In this document: one piece after another, positions 37,775-46,440 of the stretch
How the letters are laid out: every line of letters starts with the position of its first letter
Position numbering within the stretch: the first letter of the stretch is position 1
Source: Bacteroidota bacterium
GTDB taxonomy: Bacteria; Bacteroidota; Bacteroidia; Chitinophagales; Saprospiraceae
Assembly (NCBI GenBank): GCA_029557915.1
Contig: JAKQHS010000165.1
Location: 1-64,000, forward strand
DNA: 64,000 nucleotides
Reading direction: 5' to 3'
The notes under the pieces: generated by a model
The model's input: only the letters and a program-made list of their open reading frames with translations
What the model was told of the DNA's origin: nothing
Database searches by the model: none
Program-made: the position numbers and the translations under genes

Positions 37775-40700
37775 ATGTCTATCCAAAATCCAATTAAGCG
37801 ACTGCCCCTGTTGACCGGGATATTGCTTTTTATCTGCGCATGCCAAACCAAGGCCCCGCAGGACGACCGTCTTTACACCGGCGACCTCTTCCATGAAAAT
37901 ATCCGGAGTACCGATCCCCGGACGCCTGAAGAAGAACGCCAGGGCTTCAAACTGCCCCCCGGTTTCGAGATCCAGCTCTTTGCTTCCGAACCCGATATCG
38001 ATAAGCCCGTCAATATGGCCTTTGATGCCAAAGGACGAATGTGGGTCACCCAGTCGTTTGAATATCCTTTCCCTTCACCTCCGGGTAAAAAAAGCACGGA
38101 CAAACTGACCATCCTGGAAGACACCGACCACGACGGGCGGGCGGATAAATTTACCCTGGTGTCGGACAGCCTCAATATTCCCATCGGCTTATTGCCCCTC
38201 TCCGACGGACACCTGTCCTTTAGCGTACCCCATTTGTACCGTTTTACCGATGCGGATGGCGATGAAAAACCTGAAGGGTCACGGATTCTGCTCGGCCCCT
38301 TTGGATACGAAGATACCCATGGTATGGTGAGCAATTTCATACGCGGTTATGACGGCTGGGTCCACGCTTGTCACGGCTTTACCAATCTTTCCACCGTGGC
38401 CGGAAGGGACGGAGATTCCATACGCCTGCAATCGGGGAACACGTTCCGTTTCAGGCTGGACGGCAGCCGGGTCGAACAAATGACTTTCGGACAGGTCAAT
38501 CCTTTTGGATTAGCCTATGATGAACGGGGGTATATCTATTCCACCGACAGCCATACTTCCCCCCTTTACCAGCTGATCCGCGGCGCCGACTATCCCCATT
38601 TCAGTAAACCGGAAATCATGGCTTTCGGGCCCGACATGAAACCATTGGAAAACGAAGCCACCGCCCTTTGCGGCATTGCTTATTATGGCGATACTCAATT
38701 CCCGGAGGAATTCCAGGGTAATTTTTTCATCGGGGACGCCCTGATCTCAAGGGTGCACAGGTACAGCTGGACCAATAAAGGATCTACCCCTCTGGGCAAA
38801 TCCGAAACCGATTTTATCCAAAGCGCCGATCCCTGGTTCCGGCCGGTCAACATCAAACTCGGCCCCGACGGCGCCCTTTATGTGGCGGACTTTTACAATG
38901 CCATCATCGGGCATTACGAAGTACCCCTGGGCCACCCTAAAAGGGATAAACAACGCGGTAGAATATGGAGGATTACCTACAAGGGCAATCACCATGACCT
39001 TCAGGACCTGACTCAAGCTTCCATCCCTGACCTGTTGGCCACCCTCGACGCGGACAATATAAGCACCCGGATGGCCGCTGCCGATCAGTTAACGGATCGT
39101 TTCGGCGAAGCGGCCCTTGCCCAGGTCCGTACTGTTTTGGATGAAACCGGGACCCTTCCCCGGAAATACATCCATGCACTCTGGGTCACCTACCGACTGG
39201 GCGGTATGGATGATGCCCTTCTGAATAAATCCCTGGTTCATGATTCGCCCCTGGTCCGCCTGCACTCGCTCAGAATATTGAGGGAATGGAAGCCGGGAGA
39301 CGCTTCTTTCCAATCCATGGTTGCCCGCTCGCTCAATGACCCGGATGCCCATGTACAGCGGGCCGCCGCTGAATTGCTGTCTTCTTATCCAGAGATTTCA
39401 TCCGTCGAAAGCGCGCTGCAAATCCTGCGCGCAGCTCCCGCAGAAGATACCCACCTCCGGTACACGGCGCGTCTCAATCTACGTAACTTATTACGCGTAG
39501 AATCCTTGATGAAAACAGTAGCCGCAAAGGAATGGAATGAACAGGATGCAGGACATATAGCCGGCACCCTGGTAGATGTTCATTCAGCGGATGCCGCCCT
39601 GTTCCTTTCCAATCACCTGGCCAGGTATGCCTTTCCAAAAGAAAAGATACAGTTGGCTTATCAGCAGATCATGCGCTTTTTGCCCGCTTCAAAGCTGGAT
39701 GAAGTCATTCGCAGTGCGGGTGCCAAACAGGCCGAGGCCGACCTGGCCGCCCGGATATTCAGAGGGGTCAAAGACGGGCTTGCGCAAAGAGGGGGAGACG
39801 CTAAAACCGGTCTGATGCAATCCTGGGGCACAGAGATCGCAAAAGGCCTGATTCAGAGATACCCGGCCGATTCCATTTCGAGGTCCCTGGCGCCGCAACA
39901 ACTGTTTGCCATCCAACTTGCGGGTGAATACAAAATCCGGCCCCTTCAACCGGAACTGGTTTCTTTTGTGGAAAATAACCCGGGCCATGATCTGAAAACG
40001 GCCGCCTTATCTTCTCTTATGAAAATGTCGGGCGACCGGAGCACCCTCGACCTTGCCAGCAAATGGCTGATGAGCGACAGCACCCCCGTAACCCTCAAAA
40101 AAAATATTGCCACTGTCCTGGGTGAATCGCCGGGATCCGACGTAAATAAAATCCTGCTCGGGGTCACCAATGCGCCCGCTGATCTGGAGGTCGTGGTCGC
40201 TACAGCCCTTGCCGGTTCGCCGGAAGGCAAAGATCTGGTTCTACAACAAGTCCGTAACGGGGCTTTTAAGGCAAGAACCCTGATCGATCCGAGGGTGGAA
40301 GAAAAAATGCTCTTCAGAATTTCCCCTCAACAACAAAAAACGTATTCAGAGCTCACCGCCCATATCGAACCCATCAGCGAGGAAAGACAGGGCCTCATTG
40401 AGGATCGGCTGGAAGCATTCAAACTATTCAAAGCCTCCCCATCTCAGGTGGATACCGGCGCCAGGCTGTTTAATGCAAATTGTGGTATTTGCCACCGGCG
40501 TCAGACCGAATCCGGCATCGGTCCCCAGTTGCATGGTATTGGCAAACGGGGCGCGAACGCCATTGCAGAAAAGATCCTGGACCCCAACCGCAACATCACG
40601 GAAGCTTTCAGAAACTATACCATCAAACTGAAAGACGGAAAGATCCTCACCGGCCTGTACCGGGGAGAACAGGGAGCGGTGGTGATTTTTGGCGATCTCA

Positions 40701-40840
40701 CCGGAAAGGAGTTTTCCATCCGCCGGGCGGACATAGTCGAACAGAAACCTTCCCGCTATACCATCATGCCCGACCATTTTGGCACTACCCTTACCCAGCA
40801 TGAATTTAATATGCTACTGAGTTATGTACTGACCTGGTAG
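37775..40840 (+). CDS. Heme-c membrane-bound dehydrogenase (NHL-like propeller, HEAT, cytochrome c)
   Basis: 1021 residues. The N-terminal signal (LTGILLFICAC) ends in a lipobox Cys, so it is probably a lipoprotein. The first 390 residues form a PQQ/NHL-like beta-propeller (GFEIQLFASEPDIDKPVNMA, LGPDGALYVADFYNAIIGHY). A middle part of HEAT-like helical repeats (about 400-850) follows. The C-terminal cytochrome c domain has CGICH at 903-907 and a candidate distal Met in TIMPDHFG near 997. Proteins of this PVC-type heme-binding family occur in planctomycetes and Bacteroidota and are thought to oxidise sugars or alcohols outside the cytoplasm, passing electrons to the chain. The substrate is unknown. 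The VCBS-repeat gene follows. Confidence 0.88.
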   Translation: MSIQNPIKRLPLLTGILLFICACQTKAPQDDRLYTGDLFHENIRSTDPRTPEEERQGFKLPPGFEIQLFASEPDIDKPVNMAFDAKGRMWVTQSFEYPFPSPPGKKSTDKLTILEDTDHDGRADKFTLVSDSLNIPIGLLPLSDGHLSFSVPHLYRFTDADGDEKPEGSRILLGPFGYEDTHGMVSNFIRGYDGWVHACHGFTNLSTVAGRDGDSIRLQSGNTFRFRLDGSRVEQMTFGQVNPFGLAYDERGYIYSTDSHTSPLYQLIRGADYPHFSKPEIMAFGPDMKPLENEATALCGIAYYGDTQFPEEFQGNFFIGDALISRVHRYSWTNKGSTPLGKSETDFIQSADPWFRPVNIKLGPDGALYVADFYNAIIGHYEVPLGHPKRDKQRGRIWRITYKGNHHDLQDLTQASIPDLLATLDADNISTRMAAADQLTDRFGEAALAQVRTVLDETGTLPRKYIHALWVTYRLGGMDDALLNKSLVHDSPLVRLHSLRILREWKPGDASFQSMVARSLNDPDAHVQRAAAELLSSYPEISSVESALQILRAAPAEDTHLRYTARLNLRNLLRVESLMKTVAAKEWNEQDAGHIAGTLVDVHSADAALFLSNHLARYAFPKEKIQLAYQQIMRFLPASKLDEVIRSAGAKQAEADLAARIFRGVKDGLAQRGGDAKTGLMQSWGTEIAKGLIQRYPADSISRSLAPQQLFAIQLAGEYKIRPLQPELVSFVENNPGHDLKTAALSSLMKMSGDRSTLDLASKWLMSDSTPVTLKKNIATVLGESPGSDVNKILLGVTNAPADLEVVVATALAGSPEGKDLVLQQVRNGAFKARTLIDPRVEEKMLFRISPQQQKTYSELTAHIEPISEERQGLIEDRLEAFKLFKASPSQVDTGARLFNANCGICHRRQTESGIGPQLHGIGKRGANAIAEKILDPNRNITEAFRNYTIKLKDGKILTGLYRGEQGAVVIFGDLTGKEFSIRRADIVEQKPSRYTIMPDHFGTTLTQHEFNMLLSYVLTW

Positions 40841-42273: not shown

Positions 42274-43686
42274 ATGGTAACTTTTGAAGAATTAAGGGAA
42301 ATACACGCGCTGAGTGAGTTGCCGGATGAGCACCTGCAATGGCTTTTGGACCACTCCGTTTACCAGGAATTTGAAGACGGCGCCCTGATCGGGAAATACG
42401 GGGAAGCGGCCGAAAACATGTGGTTTTTGCTGGAGGGGAAGGTTACGTTTTATATGAATGTAAACGGCCGGCTGGTGTATTATTTTACTTTTGAAAACAA
42501 TGCTACAACCGGTGGAGTGAGTGGGCTGATCCCTTATTCCAGGATGAAAACCTATCCCGGAAATTCGTATGCCACCGGCAAGGTCAGGTCCATCGCCCTG
42601 CATAAAAAATTCTTTCACGAACTCGAAGACCTCAATCCCGATTTCATCCAGAAGCTCATCGGCTATATGACCGAAAGGGCAAAGGCTTTCGCCACCACCC
42701 AATTGCAACAGGAGAAAGTAAGCGCCCTGGGCAAGCTTGCCGCCGGCATAGCCCATGAACTGAATAATCCGGCCGCAGCGATCAATGGCATTGCCAGCGA
42801 ACTGACCAAACGTTTAAACCGGAATTACCAGCTCACCGAATCCCTTCTTGCCGGGCACCTTCTGCCAGAACAAATCAGGGATATCGGTGCAATGGTCCAA
42901 AAAAAGGAAAACGATCGGGCCGTGACGCCCAAACCTTCCCTGATACAGCGAATGGAAATCGAAGAGGACCTGGCCGGTTGGCTTAGCCGTATGAATATCC
43001 CCAATCCCATGGAAGCCTCTGAAACTTTTTCCGAAGCGGGCTATATAACGGAAGAGCTCGAAGGCCTTTGCAGACAGGTGGGAAAAGAAGCCGCGGTCCA
43101 TGCGCTTCAATGGCTCGAAAACCTGTTGAGTTCTCAAAAAATCATCAAAGACCTGGGCAATGCTTCGGCCCGCATTTCCAACCTGGTTGGGGCGATCAAA
43201 AGCCATGTTCATATGGACCGTACGGGCGATATTCAATCCACCCACCTCCACCAGGATATTGAAAACACCCTCACCCTTTTCGGATACAAACTCCGCGAAA
43301 AAAACATCACCGTTCGCAAAAAATTCAGCGACCACATGGTCCCCGTGCCCGCTTATGTGAGCGAGTTGAATCAGGTATGGACCAATATCATTGACAATGC
43401 CATTTATGCAATGGATAAAAACGGCGAACTGGTGATTGAAACCGCGGTGGAAGACCACCGGGTCAGGGTGAGCATCATTGACAATGGCCCCGGAATTCCA
43501 AAAGAAATCCGGTCGCGCATTTTTGACCCCTTTTTCACCACCAAAAAAGTTGGGGAAGGAACCGGCATCGGCCTGGACATGGTAAACCGTGCAGTCAAAC
43601 ACCATAACGGAGAAATCAGGGTAAGTTCTGATCCGGGCAGGACGGAATTTGCCATTTACCTCCCCTTTGAAGAAAAGCAGCAATGA
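42274..43686 (+). CDS. Sensor histidine kinase with cyclic nucleotide-binding domain
   Basis: 470 residues, no membrane segment. N-terminal cNMP-binding/CAP-like domain (about 15-140; EDGALIGKYGEAAENMWFLL), then the dimerisation/phosphoacceptor helix with His161 in GIAHELNNPAAAI and a long helical stretch. The ATP-binding domain has an N box in QVWTNIIDNAIYAMDK, G1 in IDNGPGIP, F box in IFDPFFTTKKVGEGTGIGLD and G2. It is a cytoplasmic sensor that probably phosphorylates the response-regulator fusion encoded 23 bases downstream. Confidence 0.94.
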   Translation: MVTFEELREIHALSELPDEHLQWLLDHSVYQEFEDGALIGKYGEAAENMWFLLEGKVTFYMNVNGRLVYYFTFENNATTGGVSGLIPYSRMKTYPGNSYATGKVRSIALHKKFFHELEDLNPDFIQKLIGYMTERAKAFATTQLQQEKVSALGKLAAGIAHELNNPAAAINGIASELTKRLNRNYQLTESLLAGHLLPEQIRDIGAMVQKKENDRAVTPKPSLIQRMEIEEDLAGWLSRMNIPNPMEASETFSEAGYITEELEGLCRQVGKEAAVHALQWLENLLSSQKIIKDLGNASARISNLVGAIKSHVHMDRTGDIQSTHLHQDIENTLTLFGYKLREKNITVRKKFSDHMVPVPAYVSELNQVWTNIIDNAIYAMDKNGELVIETAVEDHRVRVSIIDNGPGIPKEIRSRIFDPFFTTKKVGEGTGIGLDMVNRAVKHHNGEIRVSSDPGRTEFAIYLPFEEKQQ

Positions 43687-43709
43687 ATTTTAATTTATTA
43701 AGATAACCC

Positions 43710-45371
43710 ATGAAACTGCCTTATATCCTAATTGTCGATGACGACCTTCAGGTATTGAGGGCCATCCAGCAGGATATCCGCAATCAATACCGCAACGATT
43801 ATAAAGTGGCAGCCACGGGATCTGCCCTGGAAGCCCTGGAACTGATCAAAGCCCTGAAATTGCGTAACGAAACGGTAGCCCTTTTTATATCCGACCAGCG
43901 CATGCCGGAAATGGAGGGGATTCCCTTTCTGGAAAAGGCCCACGCACTTTTCCCCTTCGCCAAAAAAATCCTGCTCACCGCTTATTCAGATATCGAGGCG
44001 GCCATCCGCGCCATCAATCTGGTGAAGCTGGATTATTACCTTCAAAAACCCTGGCATCCGCCCGAAGAAAAACTTTTTCCCATCGTAACCGATTTGCTGA
44101 ACGAATGGCATGCCCTGTACAAACCCCAGCAGGATGCCCTGCGCATCATCGGTTTTCAGTGGTCTCCAAAATCACACCGCCTGAAGGAATTTTTATCGGG
44201 CAACCTGGTTCCTTATCTCTGGCTGGATGTGGAACGTGATGCGGATGCTGAAAGATACCTGGTCAGCGCACAGGTTTCAAAATCGGCCCTGCCCCTGGCC
44301 GTTTTAAAAGACGGGGCCTTTCTGACCGACCCTTCCCTGGCCGAACTGGCCGGCCGGATAGGCCTCCAGTCAAAGGCATCCAAAGAAATGTACGATGTGC
44401 TCATCATCGGCGCCGGGCCTGCAGGACTGGCTGCGTCGGTGTATGGGTCCTGCGAAGGGCTCAGGACCGTGCTGATTGAAAAAAGCAACCCGGGCGGCCA
44501 GGCCAGCAGCAGTGCCCGTATCGAAAATTACCTGGGTTTCCCTACCGGCCTTTCCGGGGCCGAACTGACCCAGCGGGCGATCGCCCAAACCCTGAGGTTC
44601 GGCACTGAAGTCCTCACCCCGCAGGAGGTCAAAACCATCACCGTAAAAGACGGTTATAAAATCACCGAAATGATGGATGGTTCCCTGATCCACAGCAAAA
44701 CCATTGTGATCGCATCCGGGGTAGCCTATAAAAAACTGGATATTCCAGGTATGGACCAATTCAGTGGTTCGGGGGTTTATTACGGTTCAGCCTCTGTAGA
44801 AGCCCATGCCTGCCGCAATGAAATTATTTACATCGTGGGCGGGGGAAATTCAGCCTGCCAGGCGGCCATGTACATGAGCCAATTCTGCAAAGAAGTAAAC
44901 ATCGTGATCCGCCGGGATGCCCTTTCCCAGACAGCAGCCCACTACCTGGTCGAAAACATCAGGAACGCCCCCAATATCCGCGTCATCCCCAATACAGACG
45001 TCATAGGCTGCGCGGGATCAACCGTGCTTGAAAACATTACCTTTAAAAACACGCTTACCGGGGAAGAAAAAACCTTGCCGGCCAAAGCCCTTTTTGTTTA
45101 TATCGGCATGAAACCAGGCACCGACTGGCTGAATGACCTGGTGCTAAAAAATGAAAAAGGATTTATTATCACCGGAAACAACCTGCTCCAGGAAAAAACA
45201 TACCATACCTTTTGGAAACTCCCCCGCGAACCCTATATGCCGGAAACCAGCATCCCCGGTATTTTTGCTTCCGGAGATGTTCGGTTTGAGGCCATGACCG
45301 GTATTTCTTCCGCCGTGGGAGAGGGCGCTATGGCTATCCGTTTTGTGCGAAAATACCTTCAGGAGATATAG
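43710..45371 (+). CDS. Response regulator fused to glutaredoxin-like and thioredoxin reductase-like domains
   Basis: 553 residues. Receiver domain (1-135) with Asp10-12, phosphoacceptor Asp62 in FISDQRMPEME and LLTAYSD, YYLQKPW. Residues about 144-220 resemble glutaredoxin (IIGFQWSPKSHRLKEFL, LPLAVLKDGAFLTDPSLAEL), but the CxxC position reads SPKSH. Residues 228-553 are a thioredoxin reductase-like flavoprotein (LIIGAGPAGLAA, VGGGNSACQAA, GIFASGDVR), but its CxxC is also absent; the region reads YYGSASVEAHAC. Flavin chemistry is therefore likely without dithiol exchange. The partner kinase is the preceding gene, 23 bases away. Fusions of this kind occur in other bacteria. Confidence 0.92.
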   Translation: MKLPYILIVDDDLQVLRAIQQDIRNQYRNDYKVAATGSALEALELIKALKLRNETVALFISDQRMPEMEGIPFLEKAHALFPFAKKILLTAYSDIEAAIRAINLVKLDYYLQKPWHPPEEKLFPIVTDLLNEWHALYKPQQDALRIIGFQWSPKSHRLKEFLSGNLVPYLWLDVERDADAERYLVSAQVSKSALPLAVLKDGAFLTDPSLAELAGRIGLQSKASKEMYDVLIIGAGPAGLAASVYGSCEGLRTVLIEKSNPGGQASSSARIENYLGFPTGLSGAELTQRAIAQTLRFGTEVLTPQEVKTITVKDGYKITEMMDGSLIHSKTIVIASGVAYKKLDIPGMDQFSGSGVYYGSASVEAHACRNEIIYIVGGGNSACQAAMYMSQFCKEVNIVIRRDALSQTAAHYLVENIRNAPNIRVIPNTDVIGCAGSTVLENITFKNTLTGEEKTLPAKALFVYIGMKPGTDWLNDLVLKNEKGFIITGNNLLQEKTYHTFWKLPREPYMPETSIPGIFASGDVRFEAMTGISSAVGEGAMAIRFVRKYLQEI

Positions 45372-45464: not shown

Positions 45465-46440
45465 GAATGCACGCGGAGATCACGAAGGTCACGGAGAAAA
45501 TAAACATTCTTTTTTCACATCACATTAAAATAAACAACTCCGTGCTCTCCCTCCCTCCGTGTGAACCTCATCAGGGTGACCGGCGCCTCTGGCGCCCGGC
45601 AACCGGTATGCGCACGGAGATCACGAAGCTCACGGAGGAAATAATCATTTTATTTTCCACCACCATAAAATAAACAACTCCGTGCTCTCCCTCCCTCCGT
45701 GTGAACCTAATACGGCCGGCGCCTCCGGCGCCCGGCAAACCCTATGCGCACGGAGCTCACGGAGCACACGGAGGAAATAATCATATTATTTTCCACCACC
45801 GCCCACGAAATACAAAAATAATCTCCGTGCTCTCCCACCCTCCGTGTGAACATAATACAGCCGGCGCCTCTGGAGCCCGGCAAACAGTATGCGCACGGAG
45901 CACACGAAGCTCACAGAGGAAATAATCATTTTATTTTCCGCCACCTCCTTCGAATTACAAAAATCATCTCCTTGCTCTCCCTCCCTCCGTGTGAACCTCA
46001 TCAGGGTGACCGGCGCCTCTGGCGCCCGGCAAACAGTATGCGCACGGAGCACACGAAGCTCACAGAGGAAATAATCATTTTATTTTCCGCCATCATCTTC
46101 GAATTACAAAAATAATCTCCGTGCTCTCCCTCCCTCCGTGTGAACCTCATCAGGATGGCCGGCGCCTCTGGCGCCCCGGCAACCGGTATGCGCACGGAGA
46201 TCACGAAGCTCACGGAGGAAATAATCATTTTATTTTCCACCACCATAAAATAAACAACTCCGTGCTCTCCCTCCCTCCGTGTGAACCTAATACGGCCGGC
46301 GCCTTTGGCGCCCGGCAAACAGTATGCCACGGAGATCACGGAGGAAATAAACATTCCTTTTTCCCATCACCTTAAAATAATCTTCTCCGTGCTCTCCCTC
46401 CCTCCGTGCGAACCCAAAAACAAAAAAACTCTGTGCTCTC
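45465..46440. repeat. Seven-unit tandem array of a 135-150 base repeat
   Basis: Units begin near 45473, 45611, 45747, 45892, 46041, 46191 and 46326, always at a CGCACGGAG-like start; spacing is 135 to 150 bases. Each unit has a CACGGAG-rich left arm, an AT-rich core (AATAATCATTTTATTTTCC), a CTCCGTGCTCTCCCTCCCTC right arm and a GC-rich link with GGCGCCTCTGGCGCC. Left and right arms can pair. Units 2 and 6 are nearly identical. The 1.1-kb gap 45372-46503 holds no other gene; short frames inside the units change with the unit and are not convincing. The last unit is degenerate. Confidence 0.9.

Follow-up and report, generated by a model that had tools for sequence, protein, structure and literature searches.

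Dithiol-free flavoprotein response regulators and their kinases: a gene pair that points to a little-noticed signaling system in Bacteroidota and beyond

What can a response regulator do when its output domain is folded like thioredoxin reductase (TrxR) and the dithiols of that enzyme are missing? The question is raised by two genes in a 64,000-nt stretch of DNA (the window) from a Saprospiraceae genome (Bacteroidota bacterium, assembly GCA_029557915.1, contig JAKQHS010000165.1, positions 1 to 64,000, forward strand). Both are intact open reading frames (ORFs) on the same strand, separated by 23 bp and encoding proteins of 470 and 553 amino acids (aa):

42274..43686, + strand: histidine kinase with cyclic-nucleotide-binding (CNB)-like domain, DHp domain with helical insert, and HATPase domain (ORF, Pfam, alignment, AlphaFold2 [AF2])
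43710..45371, + strand: fusion of response regulator, glutaredoxin (Grx)-like domain and TrxR-like flavoprotein (ORF, Pfam, NCBIfam, AF2)

The reading that we favor, tentatively and at somewhat below even chances, is that the fusion would be a phosphorylation-gated, NADPH-dependent flavoprotein that works without dithiol chemistry and is run by the kinase as its dedicated two-component partner. The same genome holds a second kinase/fusion pair (L009:7150-10803), whose fusion is 46% identical to that of the window.

Pfam and NCBIfam divided the fusion into a receiver (residues 6-118; Response_reg, E 4.5e-14), a mycoredoxin-like region (146-214) and a TrxR-like region (228-550; Pyr_redox_2, E 8e-35). 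Its features are as follows:

43710..44069, + strand: receiver domain, residues 1-120, with D62 as predicted phosphorylation site (alignment of 81)
44136..44363, + strand: Grx (mycoredoxin)-like domain without active-site cysteines (TIGR02200, family profile against PDB)
44163..44174, + strand: S152-P-K-S155 where mycoredoxin has C-x-x-C (profile alignment, 123 members)
44385..45368, + strand: TrxR-like FAD/NADPH core (Pfam, PDB sequence matches, AF2 superposition)
44784..44795, + strand: G359-S-A-S362 where TrxR has CxxC (alignment with the genome's own TrxR)
44811..44813, + strand: Cys368, the only cysteine that most members retain (97/123)

Relatives were taken from the 80 best of 211 candidate loci from GTDB genomes, and 81 full-length fusions were aligned, those of the window and of the paralogous pair included (alignment subsets: 59 of 80 fusions, A1; 53 of 70 kinases, A2; 31 of 79 kinases for the insert, A4). 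A larger set added plasmid and further genome members to the GTDB loci. From 131 fusion matches, two partial ones, two copies of the window gene and two duplicates were dropped, and later three more duplicates (126 to 123), which left 123 distinct members with the window's among them: 114 receiver-type, 6 CNB-type and 3 without input domain. The six CNB-type labels, first set by length, were borne out by Pfam. In a tree of 60 rows, one branch among the receiver-type members set off the CNB-type ones and another the input-less ones, and the window lay inside a 10-row set with support of 100/100; the outgroup branch was very long.

No member has CxxC at either active site, and neither site ever has Cys at both positions. 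In the Grx-like domain, position 152 is Ser in 121/123 members and never Cys, while position 155 is Ser in 102/123, with one Cys there in a single member (L166); the CxxC or CxxS active site expected of a glutaredoxin or mycoredoxin is thus missing from all 123. In the TrxR-like domain, SACAVCDGFFF of the genome's own thioredoxin reductase aligned to YYGSASVEAHA of the window. Cys was found at 359 or 362 in 0/123 members, so none has the CxxC in the NADPH domain that marks a catalytic thioredoxin reductase. Some relatives carry the annotation thioredoxin-disulfide reductase; because neither CxxC is present, they cannot be such enzymes in the usual sense.

A sequence-only reading of this DNA had proposed that SPKS(H) replaces the CxxC of the Grx domain and that the TrxR-like domain lacks its own; the alignments confirmed both. 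Neither an intact CxxC in close relatives (0/123 distinct members) nor a functional cysteine pair elsewhere came to light, since any CxxC was present in only 4 of 126 aligned rows and at an active site in none. The epithet "cysteine-less" holds insofar as there is no CxxC, but not literally: the window's fusion has five cysteines (248, 368, 383, 393 and 434), none of them forming CxxC. We conclude from the alignments that cysteine loss is a family signature and not an error. A degenerate gene or a sequencing error as its cause, for which nothing spoke, is refuted to the point of negligible probability, because all 123 members, which come from several phyla, share the loss and retain other motifs.

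The residues of receiver, FAD site and NADPH site are intact. Residues D10, D11, D12, D62, T90 and K113 of the receiver are invariant in 81/81 aligned full-length fusions; the protein has the phospho-acceptor Asp, the switch residues and the TrxR-fold FAD/NADPH output domain of TrxB-class response regulators. The Grx-like domain matched the mycoredoxin model TIGR02200 at E 2.7e-8, under that model's cut-off. Its family profile matched the mycoredoxin structure 2lqo at E 5e-8, with WCGYC of 2lqo aligned on [WF]-S-P-K-S; the likeness is to mycoredoxin-1/glutaredoxin, but Ser stands at both active-site Cys positions. P195, which we take to be the cis-Pro of the glutaredoxin fold, probably so by its position, is kept in 123/123 distinct members. 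In the core, the FAD motifs (GxGxxG, GGQ, GD) and the NADPH residues (GGGNSA, R401) are present in all or nearly all aligned fusions. With the cofactor residues kept and either CxxC found in 0/123, the earlier proposal of a flavoprotein without the usual dithiols stands.

The fusion was compared with TrxR by AF2 modeling and superposition on PDB structures. The model (pLDDT 89, pTM 0.80) fitted L. lactis TrxR titled "FR conformation" (5mh4) with Z 33.9 and a root-mean-square deviation (rmsd) of 2.0 over 298, and the same enzyme titled "FO conformation" (5mjk) with Z 29.6 and rmsd 7.3 over 295. Two structures titled NADP complexes (5vt3 and 5usx) lay at 2.4-2.6 A. As modeled, the fusion is nearer the NADPH-to-flavin geometry. 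In a protein that has neither dithiol, the FO state would serve no purpose, and the output should be something other than ordinary thiol exchange.

A TrxR fold that lacks CxxC is able to deliver electrons elsewhere: according to PMC10294844, Fe-S and FMN proteins are the acceptors of TrxR-like ferredoxin/flavodoxin-NADP+ reductases (FNRs), a group marked by the CxxC-less TrxR fold. The fusion shares that feature, and its model superposed on 8c16 (FNR2) with Z 27.6 and rmsd 3.0 over 298, so that it could be a phospho-regulated FNR of this kind. We consider this rather unlikely, since the sequence is nearer to true TrxR: TIGR01292 (thioredoxin reductase) matched at E 5.5e-71 (238.8 bits, under the cut-off of 343.45), and the best PDB sequence matches of the core were a TrxR at E 2e-49 and, as the best FNR, one at E 4e-19. 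No ferredoxin or flavodoxin was found among the scanned neighbors in the window, to which the search was confined. To our knowledge, TrxR-like FNRs have neither receiver nor Grx-like domain.

The kinase has the following features:

42274..42648, + strand: non-canonical CNB-like sensor domain, residues 1-125 (Pfam under cut-off, weak PDB matches)
42523..42543, + strand: G84-L-I-P87-Y-S89-R90 where the phosphate-binding cassette for cyclic nucleotides (cNMP) is expected (53 kinases)
42754..42756, + strand: His161, predicted phospho-acceptor, in HELNNP (invariant in 53 kinases)
42853..43083, + strand: helical insert at the tip of the DHp hairpin, residues ~194-270 (AF2, spacing in 31 kinases)
43222..43674, + strand: ATP-binding (HATPase) domain with conserved boxes (Pfam, alignment, structure search)

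HELNNP and the ATP-binding boxes, conserved in the 53 kinases, are those of a HisKA sensor kinase. In Pfam, HATPase_c was recognized at E 1.6e-25, whereas HisKA and cNMP_binding scored only under cut-off; the HisKA match covered just the first half of its model, as the DHp insert would cause. The AF2 kinase model (pLDDT 87, pTM 0.60) placed helices 198-215, 223-239, 245-254 and 259-269 between the two long DHp helices. In 30 kinases, drawn from several phyla, 206-215 residues separate the His from the N-box; the insert was present in 31/31 kinases measured, including that of the paralogous pair. It had no convincing match in Pfam, and its profile found nothing in PDB under E 0.1 beyond BurrH. 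BurrH was rejected as a relative: it scored E 1.9e-9, but no single stretch passed, and the match is probably a repeat artefact. The rows of the structure search were dominated by TrxR and kinase catalytic domains and are hence silent on the folds of the insert and of the CNB-like domain.

The insert tracks the fusion. Among 198 Bacteroidota genomes (thresholds E ≤ 1e-4 for the insert profile and E ≤ 1e-80 for the fusion), the insert profile matched 28, the very ones that have a receiver-type fusion (Fisher p 1e-34, a value that ignores kinship among the genomes). It found no match in the 4 genomes whose fusions are all CNB-type or input-less, or in the 166 that have no fusion. Insert kinase and fusion lie within 3 kb of each other in 27/28 genomes and on separate contigs in G133; moreover, a kinase is the upstream neighbor of the fusion in 73 of the first 81 loci. 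Because insert and receiver-type fusion are found in the same genomes and in no others, we conclude, on the strength of gene distribution, that the two are a dedicated pair, exclusive within this sample. Their pairing, first suggested for the window alone, is thereby upheld by both adjacency and exclusive co-occurrence.

In the reading we favor, the kinase would sense a cue via its non-canonical CNB-like domain and/or the DHp insert, autophosphorylate on His161 and then phosphorylate the regulator at Asp62. As a result, the receiver would take a different position on the FAD/NADPH TrxR-fold core, and so would the Grx-like arm with Ser for Cys, a putative docking surface. Most likely, NADPH would reduce FAD, and the flavin electrons would go to a non-dithiol acceptor, for which a quinone-type electrophile, O2 and a carrier protein are candidates; an alternative outlet would be flavin-state signaling through docking. 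A response regulator with flavin rather than DNA-binding output and a kinase class of its own, matched one-to-one, would offer testable phosphorylation control of redox enzymology.

Genes encoded beside the pair in relatives suggest what it may serve. A gene for a UBP-type zinc finger (zf-UBP) lies immediately downstream of the fusion in 23 of the first 81 loci, 24 of which have one; all of these loci belong to the branch with 51-55% identity. In the 198 genomes, zf-UBP scored above cut-off in 22 (two matches below it, in G023 and G131, were dropped), and 20 of the 22 were among the 32 genomes with the flavoprotein (p 3.5e-17). The link also appeared when counted by genus (12/14, p 1.4e-8), and the two genes lie within 3 kb in 17 of the 20 genomes having both. 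Furthermore, zf-UBP genes directly adjoin one CNB-type (L145) and one input-less (L144) flavoprotein. Genomes G042 and G085 have zf-UBP but no fusion at E ≤ 1e-80. On plasmids, 24 records were shared among the matches listed (60 of 151 and 60 of 87, near-identical Rhodococcus plasmids included); the two genes were within 3 kb in 21, at 3.9 kb in two and 6.3 Mb apart in one. No flavoprotein was annotated within ~5 kb of three plasmid zf-UBP regions (L162, L163, L165) or of two Deinococcus zf-UBP antiporters (L160, L161). In a cluster from Tsukamurella, flavoprotein, kinase and zf-UBP adjoin a gene for mycothiol-dependent detoxification of formaldehyde.

In addition, the core is linked with Kef-type antiporters in two bacterial families. 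A Kef-type antiporter gene is near 16/28 receiver-type fusions, and one input-less fusion (G187) is near a CPA2 antiporter. Family f22 has 15 genomes with a fusion, and in every one of them the cluster includes a Kef-like CPA2 antiporter. In locus L139, the ORFs for the fusion, an antiporter-TrkA-zf-UBP protein and the kinase overlap end to end; the antiporter of G183 (family f28) has a zf-UBP domain at its end, and its reading frame overlaps with that of the flavoprotein and with that of the kinase if the starts of the longest ORFs are used. A DsbA/thioredoxin-like gene adjoins the antiporter in two of the f22 clusters scanned (L169, L184), and in clusters L169 and L181 genes for a carboxylesterase and a VOC-family protein come next.

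KefF, which is not a TrxR-fold protein, offers a comparison of function. It has quinone reductase activity and is needed for full antiporter activation, and its gene lies 5' of the antiporter gene, typically overlapping it, according to PMC10224563. Likewise, the oxidoreductase gene of L139 overlaps the 5' side of a Kef-type antiporter gene. The L139 arrangement differs in that it also includes a phosphorelay and a UBP zinc finger, and it was not seen in the window's lineage. By this analogy, the core looks KefF-like in role in some sister lineages. Because the core is encoded there with Kef-type antiporters, a thioredoxin-like protein, a UBP zinc finger, a carboxylesterase and a VOC enzyme, its general role is probably in electrophile/redox stress, and the pair in the window would have this role without linked partners.

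Several findings weigh against the favored reading. To begin with the partners, a genome search found no zf-UBP in the window's genome, and the two Na/H-exchanger matches of this genome are on other contigs, unlinked to the pair. In loci L010-L089 no antiporter was found in the flanks (up to 6 kb, some shorter), only zf-UBP proteins, and 15/16 of the antiporter cases come from one family (f22), which amounts to few independent events. In loci L010-L032, zf-UBP was absent as well. A search of the window's genome for the VOC enzyme, run without a positive control, gave no match. Two broader proposals were rejected: that the system in the window cannot do without zf-UBP, since there is none in the genome or in L010-L032, and that the antiporter is a general neighbor of the flavoprotein, since L010-L089 gave only zf-UBP.

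The cysteines form the next point. C368 is retained in 97/123 members, and the close group of the window keeps Cys248, Cys368 and Cys383 in 23/23 members, whereas a protein working without thiols should not need cysteines so well conserved. These residues would suit a monothiol or alternative-cysteine disulfide reductase acting via Cys368 (or via Cys368/383/248 in the close group). Such an enzyme seems quite improbable, since C368 is replaced in 26/123 members, the paralogue in the same genome included, there is no CxxC pair, and position 383 is Gly in all 58 fusions outside the close group in the 81-fusion alignment.

As for the structure, two further NADP-titled TrxR entries, 2q0l and 3f8r, fit the model poorly (7.4 and 6.1 A), and the FR-like state comes from AF2 without a control model of a canonical TrxR. 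The core might even be catalytically silent. The fusion could then be a redox-sensing scaffold, its core binding FAD and NADP(H) with little catalysis while NADPH/NADP+ or flavin state, together with phosphorylation, sets a shape read by partners such as zf-UBP proteins and antiporters. The exchange of inputs on a single core, which may follow a receiver, a CNB domain or neither, the Ser-for-Cys Grx as a likely docking domain and the linked partners themselves argue for this possibility, which we nevertheless think unlikely: the cofactor residues are conserved as in enzymes, and the linked partners are missing from the window's lineage.

The last point concerns the input. The kinase had been described as cyclic-nucleotide sensing, and switching by cAMP or cGMP would be in line with its CNB-like fold, whose best PDB matches (E 1e-4 to 1e-3) include a CNB-domain protein and CRP. 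Moreover, the sister kinases L091 (CNB, E 5e-19, with Gly-Glu), L092 and L093 scored above the CNB cut-off, a separate CNB (Crp-like) protein adjoins the paralogous pair, and 19 class III adenylate/guanylate cyclase matches were over cut-off in the window's genome (G000). A canonical cNMP phosphate-binding cassette has Gly-Glu and Arg. Gly-Glu is present in this stretch in 0/53 family kinases, in which G84, P87, S89 and R90 (G-x-x-P-x-S-R) are invariant instead, and the domain itself stays under the Pfam cut-off. The inputs of other kinases vary: in other phyla, a receiver (Nostoc L090, by Pfam) or CNB domains precede this kinase core, and some kinases have no recognized input domain; the kinase of the paralogous pair has no CNB match in Pfam. 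On these sequence grounds the label is unsupported, and we regard cAMP or cGMP switching as very unlikely.

Beyond the favored reading, a more specific proposal is doubtful: the insert-kinase class would phosphorylate a thiol-free flavoprotein whose Ser-for-Cys Grx arm docks UBP-zinc-finger proteins and so gates Kef-type K+/H+ efflux by NADPH/electrophile status, with other targets in window-like lineages. If true, this would be a prokaryotic use of a ubiquitin-reading zinc finger in redox-ion signaling. The zf-UBP and Kef links provide concrete partners to test and hint at what UBP zinc fingers may do in bacteria.

The receiver-TrxR architecture is already in print. It is noted as "Mycobacterium-like" in two Heimdallarchaeota in a section of PMC5847659 and has a "TrxB" row in the cyanobacterial census of PMC9953108, in keeping with the earlier statement that the architecture is known and its chemistry not established. 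The feature shared with TrxB-class response regulators is a receiver fused to a TrxR domain; the passages on this class name no missing cysteines, Grx-like domain, insert kinase, zf-UBP or antiporter partners. In open-access full texts we found no account of the chemistry, the kinase or the zf-UBP partners; subscription papers lay outside this search, which did not include the DHp insert or the "P-x-S-R" motif. Thioredoxin reductase and AhpF have the same FAD/NADPH fold as the core, and AhpF has an N-terminal extension relaying electrons (PMC8945050, the relevant part of which does not mention a receiver/Grx/TrxR fusion). In contrast to both, the window's fusion is without either dithiol and has an added N-terminal receiver. 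These data point to a little-noticed signaling system that in some related bacteria is found beside potassium-efflux pumps and ubiquitin-type zinc fingers.

Some minor observations were made along the way. A tandem array at 45467-46340 (145-bp period, ~6 copies, 84% matches) lies between the fusion and the next gene; it had no Rfam match, and an Rfam scan of the whole window gave nothing at gathering score. A small protein of 82-105 aa is encoded near five fusions, downstream in four close-group loci and upstream in the fifth; the copy at L027:3323-3592, the only one scanned, had no Pfam match. In G042, a cluster of zf-UBP, thioredoxin-like, CPA2 antiporter and esterase genes (L140:6374-9436) lacks kinase and flavoprotein. 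Genes for bacterial-like globins are found upstream of the kinase in Mucilaginibacter loci (Pfam Bac_globin for L037, the one scanned), at the second position upstream of the fusion in L034, L037, L040, L041 and L045 and at the third in L044. In the window, a PVC-type heme-binding CxxCH protein (TIGR02604) is encoded at 37775-40840.

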